Shown: positions 20,985 through 44,052 of the stretch, piece by piece
Layout of the letters: every line of letters begins with the position of its first letter
Numbering within the stretch: position 1 is the first letter of the stretch
Assembly: GCA_902763865.1 (NCBI GenBank)
Contig: CACWTR010000017.1
Span: 1-47,070 of the forward strand
DNA: 47,070 bases
From: an uncultured Bacteroidales bacterium
GTDB taxonomy: Bacteria > Bacteroidota > Bacteroidia > Bacteroidales > Bacteroidaceae
Reading direction: 5' to 3'
Made by a program: the position numbers and the translations under genes
Notes under the pieces: generated by a model
Database searches by the model: none
Told to the model about the DNA's origin: nothing
What the model saw: only the letters and a program-made list of their open reading frames with translations

Positions 20985-22412
20985 ATGAAAACAATTTGCT
21001 TATACTTCGAGATACACCAGCCGGTTCATCTGAAGCGTTATCGCTTCTTCGACATCGGCACCGATCATTACTACTATGATGACTACGAAAACGAGCGTGC
21101 CATCACGGAACTGGCCGAGAAGAGTTACAAGCCTGCAATGCAGGCGATGCTCGACATGATTGCCGAGAACGGCAAGGCCTTCAAGGTAGCATTCAGCATC
21201 AGCGGTGTCTCGCTTGAACTGATTGAGCAATACGCTCCCGAGGTGCTCGAGCTCCTCGGCCAGCTGGCAGCCACCGGCTGTGTGGAATTCCTGGCTGAAC
21301 CCTACAGTCACGGCCTTTCTTCGTTGGGCAACGCCGAAAACTTCATAGCCGAGACCAAGCGTCAGGCAAAGAAAATCAAACAGATGTTCGGACTGACCCC
21401 CAAGGTCTTCCGCAACAGTTCGCTCATCTACAGCGACGAGATTGGTGCGCTCGTGGCCGACATGGGCTTTAAAGGCGTTATGGTGGAAGGTGCAAAGCAC
21501 ATCCTCGGATGGAAGAGTCCCCACTACATCTATTCCTGTGCCCAGGACTCTCGCCTCTCGCTCATCCTGCGCGACTACAAGCTTAGCGACGACATCGGAC
21601 TCCGCTTCAACGATGCCTCGTGGTCGGAGTATCCGCTCATGGCAGACAAGTGGCTCGGCTGGATTGCAGGCTTGCCGGAAGGTGAGAACGTTGTCGGCAT
21701 CATGATGGAACTTTCCGCCCTCGGCTACTACCAGCCGCTTGAGAGTCACATCCTCGACTTCCTCCGCGCCCTGCCTAGGCTTGCGAAGGACATGGACATC
21801 CAGTTTGCTACGCCCTCCGAAGTCCTTGCCAAGAACAAGCCGGTCAGTCCGTTGGAGGTTACCTATCCCGTCAGCTGGAACGACGAGGAGCGCGACACGA
21901 GCAGTCTGCTCGGCAACGGCATGCAGCGCGAAGCCTTCAACAAGCTCTACGACGAGAACATCGTGGGACGCATCCTCGCCTCGCGCGACCGCCGCATCCA
22001 GCAGGACTGGGACCGTCTGCAAGCTACCGACAACTTCCGCTTCATGACCACCAAGAACAACGGCATGGGCAACTACCGCGGTATCTACGACAGCGAGTAT
22101 GATGCCTTTACCAACTACATGAACATCCTGGGCGACTTCCTGAAGCGCGTCAAAGACATGTTCCCCGAATCGGTCGAGAACGACGAGCTGAACAGCCTCT
22201 ACACTCAGATTGCCAACATGGGCGAGGAACTCAACGTGAAGGACAACGAGATAAGCCGGCTCCGTGCTCGCCTCAAGCAGCTCGGTTCCACAGAAGAAGA
22301 GGAAGCAAACAAGCCGGCGGCCCCGAAGCCTGAGCCAAAGGCCAAACCTGCGCCCAAGAAGCGTACTCCCAAGGAAACGGCAACCAAAAAGCCGACAACA
22401 AAGAAGAAGTGA
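20985..22412 (+). CDS. GH57 alpha-amylase-like protein lacking the catalytic pair
   Basis: A 475-residue protein with a GH57 (beta/alpha)7 barrel in the first 300-400 residues. Region 1 HQP is intact (11-13) and region 2 is GCVEFLAEPYSHGL. In region 3 the expected FRNTEL-type nucleophile Glu is Ser146 (FRNSSL). In region 4 the expected MMDYETFGEH is MMELSALGYY, so the acid/base Asp is Glu242. Amylase-like GH57 proteins with an incomplete catalytic pair have been described, so this is probably a conserved non-hydrolytic protein. The C-terminal 100 residues contain a coiled-coil stretch and then a Lys/Pro/Ala-rich basic tail. The upstream gap has an AAATGGTAAATGATTAAAT repeat (20948-20966). The stop overlaps the next start as GTGA. 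Confidence 0.88.
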   Translation: MKTICLYFEIHQPVHLKRYRFFDIGTDHYYYDDYENERAITELAEKSYKPAMQAMLDMIAENGKAFKVAFSISGVSLELIEQYAPEVLELLGQLAATGCVEFLAEPYSHGLSSLGNAENFIAETKRQAKKIKQMFGLTPKVFRNSSLIYSDEIGALVADMGFKGVMVEGAKHILGWKSPHYIYSCAQDSRLSLILRDYKLSDDIGLRFNDASWSEYPLMADKWLGWIAGLPEGENVVGIMMELSALGYYQPLESHILDFLRALPRLAKDMDIQFATPSEVLAKNKPVSPLEVTYPVSWNDEERDTSSLLGNGMQREAFNKLYDENIVGRILASRDRRIQQDWDRLQATDNFRFMTTKNNGMGNYRGIYDSEYDAFTNYMNILGDFLKRVKDMFPESVENDELNSLYTQIANMGEELNVKDNEISRLRARLKQLGSTEEEEANKPAAPKPEPKAKPAPKKRTPKETATKKPTTKKK

Positions 22413-23548
22413 AAACTCCCATACTGAGCATTAGCGGGTCTGACAGCACAGGTCAGTCTGGCATTCAGGCTGACCTTCGGACCATTACCGCCCTGGGAGC
22501 TTATGCGGTCACGGCTGTCACCTGCATTGCCCCTATTCATGCCTCCCCTCCTGTGGGGAGGTTTTCTTTACCCTCCGGCGTTGTACTCGGGCAGGTCGCT
22601 TCCATTATTGGCACGGTTCATCCGAAAGCCATCAAGGTTGGTCTGGTCAGCGACGTGGAGACCATTCGCTCCTTGCGCAACGAGATTATCGCTTGCAGCC
22701 GGATTGTCATTGCGCCCGGCATTTTTGATGCCGACGGCAAGCAGATGATAGACGATGCTGCCGTTGATGCCATTGCCAGGTTTCTTGTGCCGGAAGCCAC
22801 GCTGCTGATGCTCCGCTGCAAGGATGCAGAAAAGATGCTTGACACCAGAATCCAGACGGACGAAGACATGCTGAAAGCAGCAAGACGGCTGAACGAGATG
22901 GGAGCAGAATGGGTGGTGCTTCGCGGAGGTCGGCACACAAAAGGAAGGGTAACGGCCTTGCTCAGCCCCCTTCCCCGCCCCCTCCCCCGAGGAGGGGAGC
23001 CTCGCGGCTGGAAGCCTTCCACCTCGGGGGAAGGTTCGGAGGGGGGCTGTTTCTTCACCTCCTACAACACCGACGGCTGGCTAAGGCACGGCGTAGCCGG
23101 AGCCCTTTCCGCAGCGATTACAGCACGTCTGGGAATGGGCGACGACGTGCCCACTGCCATTCGCAATGCCCACGACTTCATTCACTCGCAGGTAGTTTAT
23201 GCCAGTGACAGCGGGGAGAAGAACCGGCGTGCCATCGACCTCTACAATGCCTTCGTAAGCCTTGTAGCCGGTCATTATCGTGTGGCCCACGATGTCTCCT
23301 TTTATGCCGAAAAGCTTTGCATCACTACCCGCTACCTGTCGCAAGTAACAGACCGCATTGTAGGCAAACCTCCGAAGCAAATCATTGCCGACTACCTGAT
23401 GAGCGAGGCTAAGAGTTTTCTGGCTACAACCCGCCTGTCGGTTCAGGAGATTGCCGACCGCATGGGATTCTCCTCCCAAGCCCTCTTCTGCAGATTCTTC
23501 AGGAACCAGGCCGGTACTTCGCCAAGCGAGTACCGAAGCCAGTTGTGA
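22409..23548 (+). CDS. ThiD-like kinase domain fused to an AraC-type helix-turn-helix
   Basis: 379 residues starting at GTG 22409, overlapping the previous stop (GTGA). Residues 1-250 resemble hydroxymethylpyrimidine (phosphate) kinase ThiD: ILSISGSDSTGQSGIQADLRTITALGAYAVTAVT, then AAVDAIARFLVPEATLL and WVVLRGGRHTKGRV. Residues about 285-379 are an AraC/XylS DNA-binding domain (YLSQVTDRIVGKPPKQIIADYL, then LSVQEIADRMGFSSQALFCRFFRNQAGTSPSEYR). The ThiD active-site motif HGTGC is HGVAG here (His227, Gly231 in place of Cys) and the TPN segment is lost, so kinase activity is doubtful. I infer a regulator whose kinase fold senses a pyrimidine or B6-type ligand. Two GC-rich hairpin elements interrupt the kinase domain. 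An unverified alternative is that it is bifunctional. Confidence 0.85.
   Translation: MKTPILSISGSDSTGQSGIQADLRTITALGAYAVTAVTCIAPIHASPPVGRFSLPSGVVLGQVASIIGTVHPKAIKVGLVSDVETIRSLRNEIIACSRIVIAPGIFDADGKQMIDDAAVDAIARFLVPEATLLMLRCKDAEKMLDTRIQTDEDMLKAARRLNEMGAEWVVLRGGRHTKGRVTALLSPLPRPLPRGGEPRGWKPSTSGEGSEGGCFFTSYNTDGWLRHGVAGALSAAITARLGMGDDVPTAIRNAHDFIHSQVVYASDSGEKNRRAIDLYNAFVSLVAGHYRVAHDVSFYAEKLCITTRYLSQVTDRIVGKPPKQIIADYLMSEAKSFLATTRLSVQEIADRMGFSSQALFCRFFRNQAGTSPSEYRSQL
22542..22561 (+). repeat. Small CCTCCCC/GGGGAGG hairpin in the ThiD-like domain
   Basis: A perfect 7-bp stem, CCTCCCC (22542-22548) with GGGGAGG (22555-22561), and a 6-nt loop, in frame. It encodes ASPPVGRF in a loop after strand 2 of the kinase fold. 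Confidence 0.6.
22960..23046 (+). repeat. Large GC-rich palindromic insertion in the ThiD-like domain
   Basis: About 87 bp of C-rich then G-rich sequence, from AGCCCCCTTCCCC to GGAGGGGGGCT, with nested inverted repeats: CCCCCTTCCCC against GGGGGAAGG and CCTCCCCCGAGG against CCTCGGGGG. It is in frame and encodes a Pro/Gly/Arg-rich segment (residues 184-213, SPLPRPLPRGGEPRG and on) with no counterpart in ThiD. It resembles an intergenic repeat that has entered a gene without breaking the frame. Confidence 0.7.
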
Positions 23549-23589: not shown

Positions 23590-23721
23590 GAAAACGACTC
23601 GCGACGTGTTGCATTTTACCTCGTGAGGTAAAAGCCTTCGACTCGTGAGGTAAAGGCGTTCGACTCACGAGGTATAAGCCTTCGACTCGTGAGGTGAAAC
23701 CTTACACGTCGTGTAGTGTGT
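23590..23721. repeat. 22-bp-period palindromic array (locus B)
   Basis: Four contiguous 22-bp units at 23612-23633, 23634-23655, 23656-23677 and 23678-23699. Unit 1 holds a perfect hairpin, TTTTACCTC-GT-GAGGTAAAA. Units 2-4 share TTCGACTCGTGAGGT; unit 3 has CACGAG at the centre, the mirror of CGTGAG. Diverged units continue in register on both sides, and these carry the border words CGACGTGT (23602-23609) and ACACGTCGTGT (23704-23714), an 8-bp perfect inverted pair. The array fills the gap between two convergent genes, the ThiD/AraC fusion and the GH2 glycosidase. No open frame fits it. Confidence 0.85.
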
Positions 23722-25589
23722 CACTTCCCCTCCTTTTGAGGCATGCTCTTCTGCTTGTACCAGTCACGCAGGACATAGAAGGCTTTCTTCTTTTCGCCAT
23801 TGTCGCTGAAGAGTCCCTTGCGATTGTAGTAGTCCTGAACACCTGGGAGCACGCGGCGAGGCGAGCGGAAGTCCTTCAGAATCCAAGGGGTCGTACCGGC
23901 CAAGCCATCAATCTTGTCAAGCATGGCGCAGTTCTGGATGTAGAGGTTCTCCTGGAACTCCTCTGTCCAGCGTTGGTTCTTCGGACCATGAAGGCCGTAG
24001 CGTGCACCGCCGCCAAATTCGCTGATGATGACGGGCTTGTTGTAGGGAATCTCCCACTTCATCTTCGGAGCATCGTTCACGTCGCGGTACCAGCCGATGT
24101 ACTGGTTGAAGCTGACCACATCGACGTACTGGTTCATGTTATCGTTGAGGCGGTTCACATAGTTCGATGCACTTGTCACCTCCATAGCCATAGATATCAG
24201 ACGGGTTGAGTCCAGGCTGCGGGCATACTGGGCAAGGCGACCCAGGAAGGCATCGCGTTCAGGCGAGTGAGGAGTCTCGTTGGCTATGCTCCAGATGATG
24301 ACATTGGCACGGTTGTGGTCGCGTGCAATCATGTCGGTCAGCTGTTGCCGTGCATTCTCGAAGGTCGCAGGATTCTTCCATGCTATCGTCCAATAGACAG
24401 GAATCTCGGACCAGACCAGTATGCCCATCCTCTCAGCCTCGCGCACCATTTCCTCATGGTGCGGATAGTGCGCCAGCCTTACGAAGTTGCAGCCCAGCTC
24501 CTTGGCCCACGAGAGCAGCGTCCGCGCATCTTCTATGGTATTGGCACGACCACCGCCGTTGGGTTTCTCGTTGTGAATGCTGATGCCCTTGAGGAAGATA
24601 GGTTGACCGTTGAGCAGAATCTGCTTGTCTTGCGTTGCAATGGTGCGGAAGCCGATAGAATTGGTGACGGTGTTTGTCCCGACAGATACGAGAACCTGAT
24701 AGAGCTTAGGATTCTCGGGCGACCACAATTGCAATTTCTTCGACTGAACATTGAACTCTGAGATTCCGACCTTGCCGTCGGCATCGGTTGAAAACGTCTT
24801 CTCTATCTTCAGTTCAGGGATGGAGACCGTCACCTTGTGCCCGGCCTTTGCCTTGCTGAGTTTTGCCGCGAAGGTGATTGTTCTGTTCTTTGCCTTGGCG
24901 TCCGCCTTTGCAAGCTGCACACTGTAATCTTCGACATAGACTGCCGGGACCTTTATCAGGCGGACATCGCGCGTGATGCCTCCATAGTTCCACCAGTCGA
25001 AGATCTGCGTAGGAACATCTTCGGCGTGACGTTTGTTGTCAACCTTCACTATCAGGGTGTTCTCACCTTCCTTCAACAGGTCCGTGACATCGTAGTTGAA
25101 GGGCGTGAAGCCTCCGACGTGGTGCCCCACGTGCTGCCCGTTCACATATACGTGGGCGTCGTAGTTCACGGCGCCGAAATACAGCAGGGACTTCGCGTTT
25201 CCGTCCTTCCATGATGCATTGCCGATGTTGAAGTGCCGGCAGAACCAGACTGTCCCTTCGTAGAAGAAGAGGCGCTCGTCCTGAGTGTTCCAGTCGGAGG
25301 GAATCTGCATTGTGGGCGACTTGTCGAAGTCATACTCGATGAGGTCTTCAGGCTTTTGCGGCTTTGCATTCTGGAAGAAGCCCCACCGCGTCGGGTTCAT
25401 GCGGTAGTCGTAGTACCCTTCTTCCTGCACATCGACAATGTAGTTCCATGTCCCGTTGAGCGACAGACTCTCGTAGGCCGGAGCGTTCTGGAGCAGCGGA
25501 AGATTCCTGTCCGCAGCACGGGCAGTCGTCAGCAGGCAACACGTTACGTAGAGGGCTGTTAGCAGTCTGGAGGCTATAATCTTTTTCAT
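23721..25589 (-). CDS. Secreted GH2 glycoside hydrolase (beta-glucuronidase/galactosidase type)
   Basis: A 622-residue protein with a signal peptide (MKKIIASRLLTALYVTCCLL, cleavage after ARA), a sugar-binding jelly-roll domain (about 40-210), an immunoglobulin-like domain (about 215-330) and a TIM barrel. The acid/base Glu is in WSIANETPHS (about 439) and the nucleophile in VIISEFGGGARYG (about 524). The short GH2 form without a C-terminal extension fits beta-glucuronidases and small beta-galactosidases; the substrate cannot be set from sequence alone. It is preceded by an SLC13-type transporter 16 bp away in the same operon, so uptake and hydrolysis may be linked. Confidence 0.92.
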   Translation of the reverse strand: MKKIIASRLLTALYVTCCLLTTARAADRNLPLLQNAPAYESLSLNGTWNYIVDVQEEGYYDYRMNPTRWGFFQNAKPQKPEDLIEYDFDKSPTMQIPSDWNTQDERLFFYEGTVWFCRHFNIGNASWKDGNAKSLLYFGAVNYDAHVYVNGQHVGHHVGGFTPFNYDVTDLLKEGENTLIVKVDNKRHAEDVPTQIFDWWNYGGITRDVRLIKVPAVYVEDYSVQLAKADAKAKNRTITFAAKLSKAKAGHKVTVSIPELKIEKTFSTDADGKVGISEFNVQSKKLQLWSPENPKLYQVLVSVGTNTVTNSIGFRTIATQDKQILLNGQPIFLKGISIHNEKPNGGGRANTIEDARTLLSWAKELGCNFVRLAHYPHHEEMVREAERMGILVWSEIPVYWTIAWKNPATFENARQQLTDMIARDHNRANVIIWSIANETPHSPERDAFLGRLAQYARSLDSTRLISMAMEVTSASNYVNRLNDNMNQYVDVVSFNQYIGWYRDVNDAPKMKWEIPYNKPVIISEFGGGARYGLHGPKNQRWTEEFQENLYIQNCAMLDKIDGLAGTTPWILKDFRSPRRVLPGVQDYYNRKGLFSDNGEKKKAFYVLRDWYKQKSMPQKEGK

Positions 25590-29235: not shown

Positions 29236-31980
29236 ATGATAGTTAGTATGAAGAAAAAGAGACTTATATCAAGAGTGGCAATGATACTGACATTCGCTGC
29301 CGTTGGCATGAGCGTCTGGGCCGAAGAAGTGACAGAGGAACAAGCACTGGAACAGGCACAGCAGTTTGTGTCGAGCCACAACAGGAGGAGGTCGGCCCCG
29401 ACCGTGAAGTCAGCCCCGACCGTGGAGTCGGCGGGCCAAGTGAGCGGCCTCTACGTGTTCAACGTGAATGGCAATGGCGGCTTCGTCATCGTCTCAAACG
29501 ATGACCAGACCGTGCCCATCCTCGGCTTTAGCGAGAGTGGCAGCATCAACCCCGATGAGCTGCCCGACAACATGCGTGCGTGGCTACAGGGCTATGCCGA
29601 CCAGATAGCCTGGCTGCAGAACAATAGTAGTGTGGGGAGCAAAGGAAGCAACAGGTCGCGGGCGCCACGTCGAGCTGCCATGACGGCCATCGCGCCGCTC
29701 GTCCAGACGAACTGGAACCAGGGCAGGCCGTACAACGACCAGTGTCCGACGATTGACGACACCCGGACGGTGACGGGCTGTGTGGCCACCACCGTGGCAC
29801 AGTTGATGTACTATCACAAATGGCCTAAGACAGCCTGCGCGCCCCTGAGTGGCTACACCACGACGACGAAGGACAAGAACAAGAACTCCCACGAACTGAC
29901 CGTCAGCAGCCTCGATGCCACAACCTTCGCCTGGGACAAGATGATAGCCAACTATACACCCGTGAACCCCGAAACCGGCAGGCTCTATCTCGCCGGCACA
30001 GAGGAACAGCAACAAGCCGTGGCTACACTGATGCTCTACTGCGGCACGGCACTACAGATGAGCTATGGGCTGGGGGCCAACGGCGGTTCGGCTGCTTACG
30101 GCGAGGCCATCCCCTACGCACTGAAGTCCTGCTTCGGCTACGACGGCGGCATCCAACATTGCTACCGCAAGAACTACAGCTACGAGGCATGGGTGGACCT
30201 CATCTACAGCGAGCTGGAAGCCAGTCGGCCCGTAGCCCTCGGCGGCCAGAGTACCGGCGGCGGACATTCGTTCATCTGCGACGGCTACAAGTACGACGAT
30301 GCCGACTACTTCCACATCAACTGGGGATGGGCCGGCATCAGCGACGGATACTTCCCGCTCTCGGTGCTGAATCCCGACGAGCAGGGCGTAGGCGGCTCGT
30401 CGTCGCTCGACGGTTACAGCTTTGGGCAAGACGCCGTCATTGGCATACAGCGGCCCGTCAGCGGCAATGCCGACTACTGCCTCTCGCTGGAAGGGCTGCA
30501 ATTTGGCTCTCCCGACGAAGCTGCAGCCAGCAGCAAGACTTACGTCCGCGACGGTGAGACGCGCGCCTTCACCGGCATCAGCCTCTACTACGACACATGG
30601 AACTACAACTATGGCAACAACGCATACGACGTAACCGTGCAACTGGTGGACGGCAGCGGCAATACGGTGCAGACGTTTGGCGGCCAAGAGAACCAGACGA
30701 TGGCATGGAACGAACATATCAGCGCCACCCTCACCGACCTCAGCATACCCGGCACGGTGGCCGACGGCACCTATTATATCAAGGTGAAGAGCCGGCCCAC
30801 TGACAGCAGCGATTGGCAGGAATGCTTCGACGGCGATGCCTACAAACTGACAGCCACCATCAGCGGCAACAATCTGACCATCGGCGTTCCCATCCCGGCT
30901 AACGTCACCCCGGCAAACGTCTCATTCGCTGTCACCGGCGAATCCTCTACAGGCTCTGAGCAGACGGTGACCGCCACCGTCACCGGCGGAACGGGTGACT
31001 ATTCGGGCGACCTCGTGCTGCGCGTCAACGGCAGTGCCGTCATGGGGCAGATTGCCCATATCCCAGCGGGCGAGAATGTAAAACTGACCTTCTCCTATAT
31101 TCCCTCGTATGTCGGTGACAACACGCTCACCCTCTGGACGAATCACAGCAGCGGCACACAGATAACGGGCTCTGAAACAGTGAACATAAGCACCCTCATC
31201 ATCGACAACAACGGTTCAAATAACACCAGTCTGATAGGGAAGAACGATGGGAGCACGACGAATGTCAAACTTGCCGGGCGTACACTCTACAAGGACGGCA
31301 AATGGAACACACTGTGTCTGCCTTTCAACTTGACTATAGAGGGTTCTCCCCTCGAGGGAGCCACCGCCATGACAATGGATGTGGAAAGCATGGAGAGCGA
31401 CGGCGTGACCTATAAGACACGCTTCGACAACGACGGCACGCTCTATCTGAATTTCGTCTCGTCCACCACCCTCACTGCCGGCACACCGTATATCATCAAG
31501 TGGGACAAGGCCGATGGCTACGACGAGGACAGCGAGGACACACGCGACATCACCGAGCCTGTGTTCACCGACGTGACACTCAGTAAAGGTTTCAACGACA
31601 TCGGAAGCAACGACGGCAAGGTTTCGTTCCAGGGGCGCTACACTGCCTGGACCTACTCGACAGAGGAGAAGAGCACCCTCCTGATGGGCGCTGACAACAC
31701 TCTATACTATCCGCAACCTGACCTCACCGACCCCGAAAACCCGAAATATCCCAGCATCGGTGCCTGCCGGGCATACTTTGAGCTCAGCAATGTTGCCCCC
31801 GTCCGCGCCTTCGTACTCAACTTCGACGACGAAGAGCCCACCTCCATAAACGAAATAGTAAATGGTAAATCATCAAATGGTAAATCCGCTTGGTACACGC
31901 TTGACGGTCGCCAACTGAGTGGCAAGCCCTCGCAGAGCGGCATATACATCCGCGGAGGCAAGAAAATTGTAATTAAGTAA
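29236..31980 (+). CDS. Secreted C10-family cysteine peptidase (streptopain-like)
   Basis: 914 residues; an ATG at 29248 (MKKKRLISRVAMILTFAAVG) would give a tidier signal peptide and is equally possible. After the signal comes a Spi-type propeptide (about 25-150; NGNGGFVIVSNDDQTVPILGF). The C10 catalytic domain has Cys182 in GCVATTVAQLMYYHKWP and His344 in GGGHSFICDGY, followed by HINWGWAGISDGYF. Then come beta-rich domains of about 500 residues and a C-terminal segment, AWYTLDGRQLSGKPSQSGIY ending GGKKIVIK, like the type IX secretion sorting tails of Prevotella. Two AATGGTAAAT repeats (31860-31885) code the NGKSSNGKS linker just before that tail. A 64-residue peptide gene follows 12 bp later. 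Confidence 0.93.
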   Translation: MIVSMKKKRLISRVAMILTFAAVGMSVWAEEVTEEQALEQAQQFVSSHNRRRSAPTVKSAPTVESAGQVSGLYVFNVNGNGGFVIVSNDDQTVPILGFSESGSINPDELPDNMRAWLQGYADQIAWLQNNSSVGSKGSNRSRAPRRAAMTAIAPLVQTNWNQGRPYNDQCPTIDDTRTVTGCVATTVAQLMYYHKWPKTACAPLSGYTTTTKDKNKNSHELTVSSLDATTFAWDKMIANYTPVNPETGRLYLAGTEEQQQAVATLMLYCGTALQMSYGLGANGGSAAYGEAIPYALKSCFGYDGGIQHCYRKNYSYEAWVDLIYSELEASRPVALGGQSTGGGHSFICDGYKYDDADYFHINWGWAGISDGYFPLSVLNPDEQGVGGSSSLDGYSFGQDAVIGIQRPVSGNADYCLSLEGLQFGSPDEAAASSKTYVRDGETRAFTGISLYYDTWNYNYGNNAYDVTVQLVDGSGNTVQTFGGQENQTMAWNEHISATLTDLSIPGTVADGTYYIKVKSRPTDSSDWQECFDGDAYKLTATISGNNLTIGVPIPANVTPANVSFAVTGESSTGSEQTVTATVTGGTGDYSGDLVLRVNGSAVMGQIAHIPAGENVKLTFSYIPSYVGDNTLTLWTNHSSGTQITGSETVNISTLIIDNNGSNNTSLIGKNDGSTTNVKLAGRTLYKDGKWNTLCLPFNLTIEGSPLEGATAMTMDVESMESDGVTYKTRFDNDGTLYLNFVSSTTLTAGTPYIIKWDKADGYDEDSEDTRDITEPVFTDVTLSKGFNDIGSNDGKVSFQGRYTAWTYSTEEKSTLLMGADNTLYYPQPDLTDPENPKYPSIGACRAYFELSNVAPVRAFVLNFDDEEPTSINEIVNGKSSNGKSAWYTLDGRQLSGKPSQSGIYIRGGKKIVIK

Positions 31981-32187: not shown

Positions 32188-32236
32188 CAATGAAAATAGT
32201 GTGACGGGAGAAGATAAAATCCGGAAGAATACGACA

Positions 32237-32334
32237 CAAAAGTTATTTTCATGACGTGAAAATCAATTTTCACGTCATGAAAATAGATTTTCAAACCATG
32301 AAAATTAATTTTCAAAGTTTGAAAATAACTTTTG
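32237..32334. repeat. 21-bp-period palindromic array (locus C)
   Basis: Four contiguous 21-bp units at 32245-32265, 32266-32286, 32287-32307 and 32308-32328, each of the form ATTTTCA-N5-TGAAAAT-NN. The centres are TGACG, CGTCA, AACCA and AAGTT; units 1 and 2 are reverse complements of each other. The whole array is itself palindromic: CAAAAGTTATTTTCA (32237-32251) and TGAAAATAACTTTTG (32320-32334) form a perfect 15-bp pair. It lies in the gap between the small peptide gene and the convergent RNase G gene (32188-32379). No open frame fits. Confidence 0.9.
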
Positions 32335-34295: not shown

Positions 34296-35405
34296 ATGTT
34301 CAAATTCAAAATAGAGCAGTGGTACGAAGCCAATGGCCGCGACCTTCCCTGGCGTCACACGAGCGACCCCTACCTCATCATGCTCTCCGAGTTCATCCTT
34401 CAGCAGACGCAGGTTGCACAGGGCATGGACTACTATCTGCGCTTTGCCGAGAGGTTCCCCACCGCAATGCACCTGGCTGAAGCAAGCGAGGAAGAGGTGC
34501 TCAGGCTTTGGCAAGGGTTGGGCTACTACAGCCGAGCCCGTCACCTGCATGCCGCGGCACAGCAGATAGCCCGGACGGGAGGCTTCCCGCGCGACTACAG
34601 CTTCGTCCGTGCATTGCCCGGCATAGGCGACTATACGGCAGCAGCCATCATGAGCCTTGCCTTCGGCGAACCCTACGCGGTACTCGACGGCAACGTGCAG
34701 CGCGTCCTTTCCCGTCACTTTGGCATCAGCGAACCAGTCGATTCCACACAGGGCAAGAAGCTTCTTCGCGCCCTTGCCGACGAATTGCTCGACAAGGAGC
34801 ATCCAGCCCTTTATAACCAAGCCATCATGGACTTCGGAGCTTTGCAATGTAAGCCTACAACGCCACGTTGCGAGACTTGTCCGCTTGCCGAAACATGCGA
34901 GGCTCTGAGGACGCACCAAGTGGATAAGCTGCCCGTCAAGTCAAAGCGAACCGCAGTCCGAGACCGCTACCTTACTTATATATATATGCGCACGAAGGAG
35001 GGACAGACGCTCCTCCACCGACGTGGCAGCGGCGACATCTGGCAGGGGCTCTACGAGTTCCCGCTGATTGAATCCGAAAAGCCGCTCACGACAGAAGAGG
35101 TGGAAAAGTGGCTCTCCCCGAATCTTGAAGCCAACAGCTATGAACTGACACTTGTCGCCCGCGATGTCCGGCACCAGCTCACCCACCAACGCCTGCATGC
35201 CGACCTGTACATCCTCACGCTGCCCCAGGCCGACGGCGAAATGCTGCCAGCCACCGAAGGTTCAATGGTCAATGGTCAGTATTCAATGGTCAATACTCAA
35301 TGGTCAATGTTCAATGGTCAATGGGTCAACGAGTCCGACCTTGACCGTTACGCCATGCCGCGCCTGCTGCTGAAGTTGTTGGAGGCTGTCAGACGCAGGG
35401 ACTGA
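34296..35405 (+). CDS. mutY: A/G-specific adenine glycosylase
   Basis: 369 residues from ATG 34296 (MFKFKIEQWYEANGRDLPWR), the usual MutY start. It removes adenine opposite 8-oxoguanine. Visible features: catalytic Glu in SEFILQQTQV, helix-hairpin-helix LPGIGDYTAAAIMSLAFG, catalytic Asp in VLDGNVQRVL, and the [4Fe-4S] cluster motif C-x6-C-x2-C-x5-C in QCKPTTPRCETCPLAETC. A NUDIX-like C-terminal domain follows. That domain is interrupted near its end by a tandem repeat (35263-35328) coding NGQYSMVNTQWSMFNGQW, just before the conserved DLDRYAMPRLL. The last 17 bp overlap the convergent 5-formyl-THF cyclo-ligase gene tail to tail. Confidence 0.95.
   Translation: MFKFKIEQWYEANGRDLPWRHTSDPYLIMLSEFILQQTQVAQGMDYYLRFAERFPTAMHLAEASEEEVLRLWQGLGYYSRARHLHAAAQQIARTGGFPRDYSFVRALPGIGDYTAAAIMSLAFGEPYAVLDGNVQRVLSRHFGISEPVDSTQGKKLLRALADELLDKEHPALYNQAIMDFGALQCKPTTPRCETCPLAETCEALRTHQVDKLPVKSKRTAVRDRYLTYIYMRTKEGQTLLHRRGSGDIWQGLYEFPLIESEKPLTTEEVEKWLSPNLEANSYELTLVARDVRHQLTHQRLHADLYILTLPQADGEMLPATEGSMVNGQYSMVNTQWSMFNGQWVNESDLDRYAMPRLLLKLLEAVRRRD
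35263..35328 (+). repeat. TCAATGGTCAATG tandem repeat inside mutY
   Basis: About five imperfect copies of TCAATGGTCAAT(G/A) in 66 bp, in frame. It encodes Met/Val/Asn/Gly/Gln/Trp-rich sequence in a loop of the NUDIX-like domain. The sub-sequence AATGGTCAATGTTCAA (35299-35314) is identical to one inside purL (2209-2224, opposite strand). Confidence 0.8.
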
Positions 35406-37748: not shown

Positions 37749-37880
37749 ACCGACACGACGCGATGACTTCATTGCTTCATCGCGAACAAGCAATTGCTTC
37801 ATCGCGATGAAGCAATTGCATCTACATGTATGTGCAATCACTCCATCGCGATGAAGCAACGAACACGTCGTGTCGTACTT
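37749..37880. repeat. 22-bp-period palindromic array (locus D)
   Basis: Within the gap 37521-38017, four contiguous 22-bp units lie at 37771-37792, 37793-37814, 37815-37836 and 37837-37858. Unit 2 plus one base is a perfect 22-bp palindrome (37794-37815; left half TTGCTTCATCG). Units 1 and 4 share CCATCGCGATGAAGCA or its mirror half. Unit 3 keeps the ATTGCA...TGTGCA ends around a new centre, ACATGT. Diverged units continue in register on each side and carry the borders CGACACGACG (37751-37760) and CGTCGTGTCG (37866-37875), a perfect 10-bp inverted pair. The right border includes ACACGTCGTGT (37863-37873), the same 11-mer as at locus B. The flanking genes are divergent here. Confidence 0.88.
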
Positions 37881-37990
37881 AGCGTCCGAAGGCGTGGTCA
37901 AAGAATTAACTTTTCGTGCCGTAACATATAAAAGAGCTTAAATAAGGCATTTTTTTCGCGAAGGATGGCTATATTTACATATTAATAATG

Positions 37991-43967: not shown

Positions 43968-43987
43968 CCATTGCTGAATGCACGATG

Positions 43988-44052
43988 GAAAATGATAAAT
44001 GGGTAAATGGTAAACAGAAAATGGATAAATGGTAAATGGGTAAATGGTAAAT
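43988..44052 (+). repeat. AAATGGTAAATGG tandem repeat at the start of the kinase gene
   Basis: Imperfect copies of AAATG(G/A)(G)TAA fill the 56 bp before the kinase gene and run into its first codons. Several ATGs occur in the array; only the one at 44044 opens the long frame, while the one at 44036 stops after four codons. The repeat therefore supplies the start codon, and unit gain or loss would change leader length or start choice. Confidence 0.7.

Follow-up and report, generated by a model that had tools for sequence, protein, structure and literature searches.

Dispersed intergenic arrays of 21–22-bp dyad units in a Bacteroidales genome, a possible platform on which an oligomeric DNA-binding protein assembles

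We analyzed a stretch of 47,070 nucleotides (the window) that represents contig 17 of a 2.91-Mb Bacteroidales genome in 75 contigs. Short tandem arrays in the window belong to a genome-wide intergenic set of three types, A, B and C. The arrays have a period of two helical turns and dyad units, they form genome-wide sets whose unit sequences differ between species, and in types B and C motifs continue in phase into the flanks. As a tentative explanation, and the best that we can offer, these satellite-like dispersed arrays would be an assembly platform for a putative oligomeric DNA-binding protein.

By unit pattern, we found 52 arrays in 847 kb, i.e., 26 of type C, 17 of type B and nine of type A. 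All 52 array midpoints were located outside genes, as called in this sample with a simple in-house gene caller. In the entire genome, the unit of the array at 32.2 kb (type C) had 407 matches and that of the array at 37.8 kb (type B) had 72, and the border motif CACGTCRTG occurred 306 times compared with 81 times for the reversed control. A detector for at least three palindromes in register at periods of 20–24 returned 22 arrays in 447 kb; controls returned 0, 0 and 1. Palindrome pairs in the 847-kb sample, counted as pairs of positions such that a single four-unit array yields several, peaked at lag 21 (95 pairs) and lag 22 (15 pairs), where 0.3 were expected in each case, and numbered 0–2 at each of the remaining lags from 15 to 30 (at most 0.7 expected). 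This peak is as expected from the first-pass annotation of the window, according to which each unit spans two helical turns and all dyads face one side of the DNA. The same annotation would have given up its reading if no further arrays existed in this genome or in relatives; they were found in both. Seven border-like units form one array at C7:7720–7873. Moreover, a palindromic unit GAAACAATTTGTTTC paired at 21–22 bp in the present genome (G000; C8:62825, C2:56105 and C6:85569) is perhaps a minor extra type. Runs of N were seen within type B arrays at L005 and L296.

The type A array of the window, locus B of the annotation, indeed consists of four contiguous 22-bp units (23620–23641, 23642–23663, 23664–23685 and 23686–23707), with 100, 91, 86 and 73% identity to the first unit. 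TRF reported a period of 22 with a score of 119, and lag-22 identity was 50/66, whereas the maximum over 300 Markov shuffles of the window was 36. One common unit centre had been described; CTCGTGAG was present in units 1, 2 and 4, but the third unit carries CTCACGAG. Dyad symmetry at this locus was modest. The units matched at 9, 7, 5 and 6 of 11 positions, respectively, and only the first unit is a good palindrome. The palindrome detector, which demands at least three palindromes in register, missed this imperfect array. Inverted borders in register were located as annotated, CGACGTGT on the left and ACACGTCGTGT on the right (Table 1), and the flanking genes are convergent. The locus motif CTCGYGAGGTA had 19 genome matches compared with 7 for the reversed control. 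A second type A copy at C46:2722–2868 shares 77% identity with window positions 23596–23742. Rfam gave no hit at gathering threshold for the whole window, viral contigs scanned with three patterns gave no match, and neither did plasmids and phages, which were scanned for this array only. CRISPR needs unique spacers between repeats, whereas the units here are contiguous, in agreement with the annotation. The gene on the left of the array combines a phosphomethylpyrimidine-kinase domain and an AraC-type HTH in a single fusion.

Arrays of like design had also been noted at 32.2 and 37.8 kb, where we found four units of 21 bp and four units of 22 bp, respectively, and in decayed form at 8.85 kb, where decayed units are seen in phase. 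The statement that unit sequences differ from locus to locus was correct inside the window but not genome-wide, where types B and C recur.

Table 1 Arrays, borders and neighbouring genes in the window
Feature	Position	Strand	Remark
Decayed array, border-like units CACGACGT / ACACGTCACGTCGTGT / GGGACGTTGTGAC in 22-bp register	8843–8908		
Gene with phosphomethylpyrimidine-kinase domain and AraC-type HTH, convergent neighbour	22409–23548	+	
Left border unit of type A array, CTCGCGACGTGTTGCATTTTAC, 22-bp register	23598–23619		
Type A array, four 22-bp units	23620–23707		
Right border of type A array, ACACGTCGTGT, in register	23704–23714		overlaps unit 4; 5 genome places, reversed control 1
Outer flank of type A array	23715–23742		common to second type A copy (C46:2722–2868)
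Glycosyl hydrolase family 2 (GH2) gene	23721–25589	-	final codons and stop inside array flank
Left flank block of type C array, ACG motif and A-tract	32224–32245		
Type C array, four 21-bp units TTTTC-7-GAAAA	32246–32325		linkers TCAA, TAGA, TTAA
Left border of type B array, ACACGACGCG	37750–37771		
Type B array, four 22-bp units TTGC...GCAA	37772–37859		last unit starts TCAC; one core ACATGT; divergent gap
Right border of type B array, ACACGTCGTGT	37860–37881		

The three types differed in unit number and in how their units are related. Type C units (TTTTC-7-GAAAA with a linker of 4 bp, 21 bp in total) numbered four at 23 of 27 loci. Type B (TTGC...GCAA, 22 bp) had three units at 14 of 18 loci and four at the other 4, with one locus containing N dropped from the count. 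Type A (CTCRYGAG, 22 bp) was found at 15 loci with 2 to 8 units. Type A units were more alike within a locus (0.816) than between loci (0.633; permuted 0.645 ± 0.010, both orientations). Identity of type B units was the same within and between loci (0.761 and 0.758), and type C units inside one array were less alike than random (0.829 versus permuted 0.864 ± 0.008). Moreover, type C cores group into subfamilies common to several loci. We conclude that the four units of type C were copied from locus to locus as a cassette, and that local homogenisation is restricted to type A, the type of locus B. Amplification in place from a local seed, as originally proposed for every array, hence applies to type A and to some flanks in which 22 bp are locally duplicated, but not to types B and C with their units or cassettes common to many loci.

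The outer linker TCAA reads inward in 17 of 24 type C arrays and outward in one. Of 103 type C units, 50 pair CG with TG at their centre, and neighbouring units in opposite orientation showed no clear excess (5 and 5 versus 4.1 and 3.1). Hairpin covariation inside units was mixed, i.e., above chance for type C and below chance for types B and E of the relative G085. The type A-like CCTCGTGAGG borders a type B core at C2:52849; this single case fits newer cores invading older arrays.

Beyond the cores, the flanks showed a phased pattern. Outside type C cores, A-tracts are found near −6, −28, −50 and, weakly, −72 (24 arrays, of which one with five units was cut at four). Information content in these flanks peaks at lag 22 (r 0.84), and decreases per 22-bp block outward from 16.0 to 6.1, 3.6, 1.1, 0.3 and 0.1 bits (null 0.03 ± 0.18). 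Type B flanks gave 14.9, 1.95, 1.16, 0.44, 0.24 and 0.35 bits. The type A signal was weak, with 2.6, 1.6, 0.1, 0.95, 0 and 0.3 bits (null 0.04 ± 0.31). Likewise, flank self-identity at lag 22 was 0.343 for type C and 0.297 for type B, compared with 0.255 for random stretches; type A reached 0.278, which was not above its values at lags 27 and 30. Inverted borders are present, yet flank similarity fades block by block. Flank identity among type C arrays hardly tracks core identity, with 0.348 for 16 pairs whose cores are at least 93% alike and 0.327 for 180 pairs below 85%; we therefore conclude that these flanks keep a motif and not a copy, and that only the cores were copied. In the 20 bp closest to type C cores, flanks were slightly more alike within elements (0.579) than between elements (0.525; p 0.036), which counts against the platform reading proposed below. 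We also considered a long stem between the two flanks and rejected it, because flanks of one element showed no general excess of complementarity over flanks of different elements, which favours separate DNA sites.

Type C had no match in 60 other genomes, 36 of them from the same genus. Arrays of period 21–22 were nevertheless present in 7 of 21 same-genus relatives sampled, mostly with other units. Among stretches of 20 genus relatives (733 kb), those of G002, G008, G012, G028, G031 and G032 yielded nine arrays of period 22 and one of period 21, whose units are unrelated. These account for 10 of 21 detector rows at periods 16–31, with 0, 0, 2 and 0, 0 rows in controls; the other 11 have other periods, and several are 9-bp CTATAG repeats. 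Such 9-bp-unit arrays with a CTATAG core (detector period 18) occur at L124–L126 (G028) and L103 (G010) and are unrelated to the 22-bp arrays. Among 20 genomes that belong to the same order but to other families (262 kb in all, partly in very short stretches), no 21–22 array was detected, with two rows at period 17 and 5 and 2 in controls, and a single palindrome pair was found at lag 22. Eighty named loci, mostly from rumen Prevotella-group MAGs (720 kb), yielded nine rows, five at 22 and one at 21; two controls yielded one row each, one of these at 22.

Judged by the GH2 region, G085 is the closest relative, with 85% DNA identity. Its type B units have the core CATG, not CGCG, with 104 matches, and it holds two further types of its own; in G085 type E, unlike halves are paired more often than expected by chance. 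The type B unit was found in 12 of 139 genomes and is abundant only in the present genome and G085, with 1 or 4 matches in the other ten; the unit of G028 was present in one of 139 genus genomes. The border-unit pattern, with two mismatches allowed, was found in 25 other genomes, mostly as single hits near control level. Taken together, the relatives suggest a shared design with other sequences, in which spacing and symmetry are kept and the letters are not.

Tandem repeats of constant length and variable sequence, 20–23 nt in many bacterial groups, have been described by Subirana and Messeguer (PMC8161180, and a further paper, PMC6749651). In the accessible text of PMC8161180, such repeats are species-specific in sequence, occur as several families per genome, are mostly non-coding and have no known function; their length equals two helix turns, and a polymerising protein or RNA was proposed. 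For a 52-nt class, the same text mentions short signals "and their reverse" often within one repeat. As far as this account goes, our arrays fit the described kind: pairs lie at 21–22 bp and units differ between species, type C with its 407 matches was found in none of 60 other genomes, three main types exist here and three in G085, and all 52 midpoints are intergenic by our gene calls. Families of this kind are further described as shared by close relatives only, and as partly conserved between strains with changes in length; with one genome per species here, the nearest observation is a close-clade locus with three or two units (see below). The search in PMC8161180 was set to at least four repeats, a number reached at locus B and at 23 of the 27 type C loci, whereas most type B loci (14 of 18) have three. 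Compared with the accessible description of this kind (PMC8161180), the present arrays add dyad symmetry, with near-palindromic units whose linker holds a further dyad, a small and nearly constant number of units in types B and C, the copying of whole cassettes between loci, and in-phase motifs that decay into the flanks. The annotation had taken a match to a described repeat family as evidence against itself; a similar kind is on record (PMC8161180). In the literature searched, which left most subscription papers outside, such arrays were unreported for this group. For constant-length, sequence-free bacterial tandem repeats, this genus is a rich case, with 52 arrays in 847 kb and many sequenced relatives that have their own versions. 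The dyads point to a protein and the near-fixed unit number to a fixed stoichiometry. What, then, reads the spacing?

Two-turn phase, dyads, near-fixed unit number and flanks that share only a motif argue for a nucleoprotein platform. We propose that an oligomeric protein binding double-stranded DNA might assemble on the array over about 150–230 bp, with one dimer per dyad and all dimers on one helix face. The sequence could then change freely as long as phase and symmetry stay. A new version would spread in types B and C as cores are copied from one locus to another, and in type A through local duplication of 22 bp, and older units would be left behind as decaying flanks. Candidate roles are nucleoid organisation, insulation or a transposase-like spreader. 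Of the two functions originally suggested, the oligomeric DNA-binding protein is hence the better reading, still putative, and RNA hairpins fit poorly (see below). Lrp/AsnC-type wrapping sites, a candidate lead, resemble our arrays in that several dyads follow one another at about two turns, which suits an octamer; species-specific turnover of units would not be expected of a conserved regulator. Other observations speak against the platform. In the few places comparable, array sites differ from those of the closest relative, which would be unexpected if the sites had long served a role in the cell. Also, the asymmetric unit centres would not be needed by a simple symmetric dimer, and for type A the weak flank signal and imperfect dyads count against it.

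A more far-reaching version, which we consider rather unlikely, assumes a conserved and sequence-flexible machinery within one genus that needs only two-turn phase and dyads. Successive waves of palindromic units would invade the centres of older arrays genome-wide, such that arrays would be built like onions, with fresh core cassettes inside and decaying older units outside. Related species would fix different unit sets, in a bacterial counterpart of eukaryotic satellite turnover.

Alternatively, the arrays might be MITE-like non-autonomous mobile cassettes of an unknown transposase, with the 22-bp palindromes as transposase sites and no host role. We regard this as improbable, albeit to be taken seriously, as type C core subfamilies were copied between loci. 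The DNA homology of the GH2 gene begins at 23743 in the three furthest-reaching relatives, just where the alignment with the C46 copy stops, and a type A element end is thus suggested at 23742. At the protein level, the GH2 match stops at residue 612–615 of 622 in 75 of 80 homologues listed (277 found), and the G085 homologue, where the array is absent, has a different C-terminus; the early end of a local protein match may, however, merely reflect variable C-termini. Among 16 G085 arrays, only one had both flanks mapped adjacently in the sample of the present genome, with an array-free gap of about 97 bp here; for another (C50), a single flank was mapped, and no array adjoins it here. Against such mobility, neither a target-site duplication nor a clean empty site was recovered from the relatives, which are too diverged for placing junctions. 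A search for empty type C landing sites by flank matrix at the highest threshold gave 14 hits away from array starts, compared with 2 in one shuffle, and none was convincing: 11 adjoin type C arrays, C2:34385 borders a single truncated unit, and two are unrelated or belong to another repeat. Moreover, random insertion does not predict the phased motifs beyond the copied core in type B and C flanks. Solitary type B copies had ordinary neighbours at the two loci with ORFs listed and gave no pointer to a partner gene.

REP/BIME elements are dispersed intergenic imperfect palindromes in many copies that are associated with the RAYT transposase. Our arrays are likewise dispersed, intergenic, imperfectly palindromic and in many copies, but are tandem at a 21–22-bp phase. 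We searched 37 genus genomes, G085 left out, for the RAYT domain Y1_Tnp. No match was found in 25 of these (incomplete) genomes, including the array carriers G002, G008, G012, G028 and G032; the carriers G000 (best C4:17736, E 2e-18) and G031 had two matches each. RAYT was rejected as a partner since Y1_Tnp was missing from 5 of 7 array carriers searched. A RAYT-linked REP is therefore disfavoured, in line with the annotation, which had set the arrays apart from classical REP/BIME, and this search provided no linked transposase for a MITE-like cassette. The BrickBuilt MITE of Porphyromonas gingivalis (PMC4596501) is likewise a dispersed Bacteroidales element with short tandem repeats and inverted ends. 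According to the accessible text, its repeats are 23-nt direct repeats and its terminal inverted repeats resemble those of resident IS elements; the main text of PMC4596501, as available, does not mention palindromes, in contrast to the dyad units here.

RNA hairpin arrays at transcript ends, acting as terminators, in mRNA protection or as sRNA, are an unlikely explanation. Single-strand folds were strong, with z of −3.9 for locus B and −8.0 for the 32.2-kb array, but palindromic tandem DNA would fold well anyway. In tandem gaps of both genomes, 26 of 34 arrays lie closer to the 3' end of the upstream gene, and type C favours convergent gaps (9/26, p 0.008, uncorrected, four tests run); promoter avoidance alone would, however, also yield a 3'-end bias. 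In addition, satellites of another bacterium were reported to be transcribed, according to the part of PMC8625621 available. The main objection is that divergent gaps hold 16 of the 52 arrays in 847 kb, with type B even favouring them (9/17, p 0.006, again uncorrected among four tests), and the RNA reading therefore fits poorly. Neither the missing Rfam hit nor the lack of general pairing between flanks supports it, and we consider a general RNA role at 3' ends disfavoured.

Neutral minisatellites, i.e., functionless 22-bp slippage or unequal exchange with palindromes favoured as slippage primers, would account for the variable and locally homogenised type A, for the local 22-bp duplications and for a close-clade locus with two or three units, but they are also unlikely, as slippage should yield many periods and not a cluster at 21–22, and as type C units are near-fixed in number and differ more than random.

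At this close-clade locus, the closely related genomes G003, G071, G032 and G153 carry an array just upstream of one gene, which we take to be CTP synthase (pyrG locus); the array has three units in G003, G032 and G153 but two in G071. Apart from the pyrG array, presence/absence comparison within the close clade G003/G071/G032 revealed only unrelated small indels. Insertion polymorphisms of about 100 bp between close genomes were seen near the pyrG locus (L331 15109–15212 compared with L332 and L333). In the window itself, 7-bp tandem repeats TCAATGG and ATGGTAA at 35262–35329 and 43985–44052 are of a different kind from the arrays, and a C10 (streptopain-type) peptidase with a Spi inhibitor propeptide is encoded at 29236–31980.
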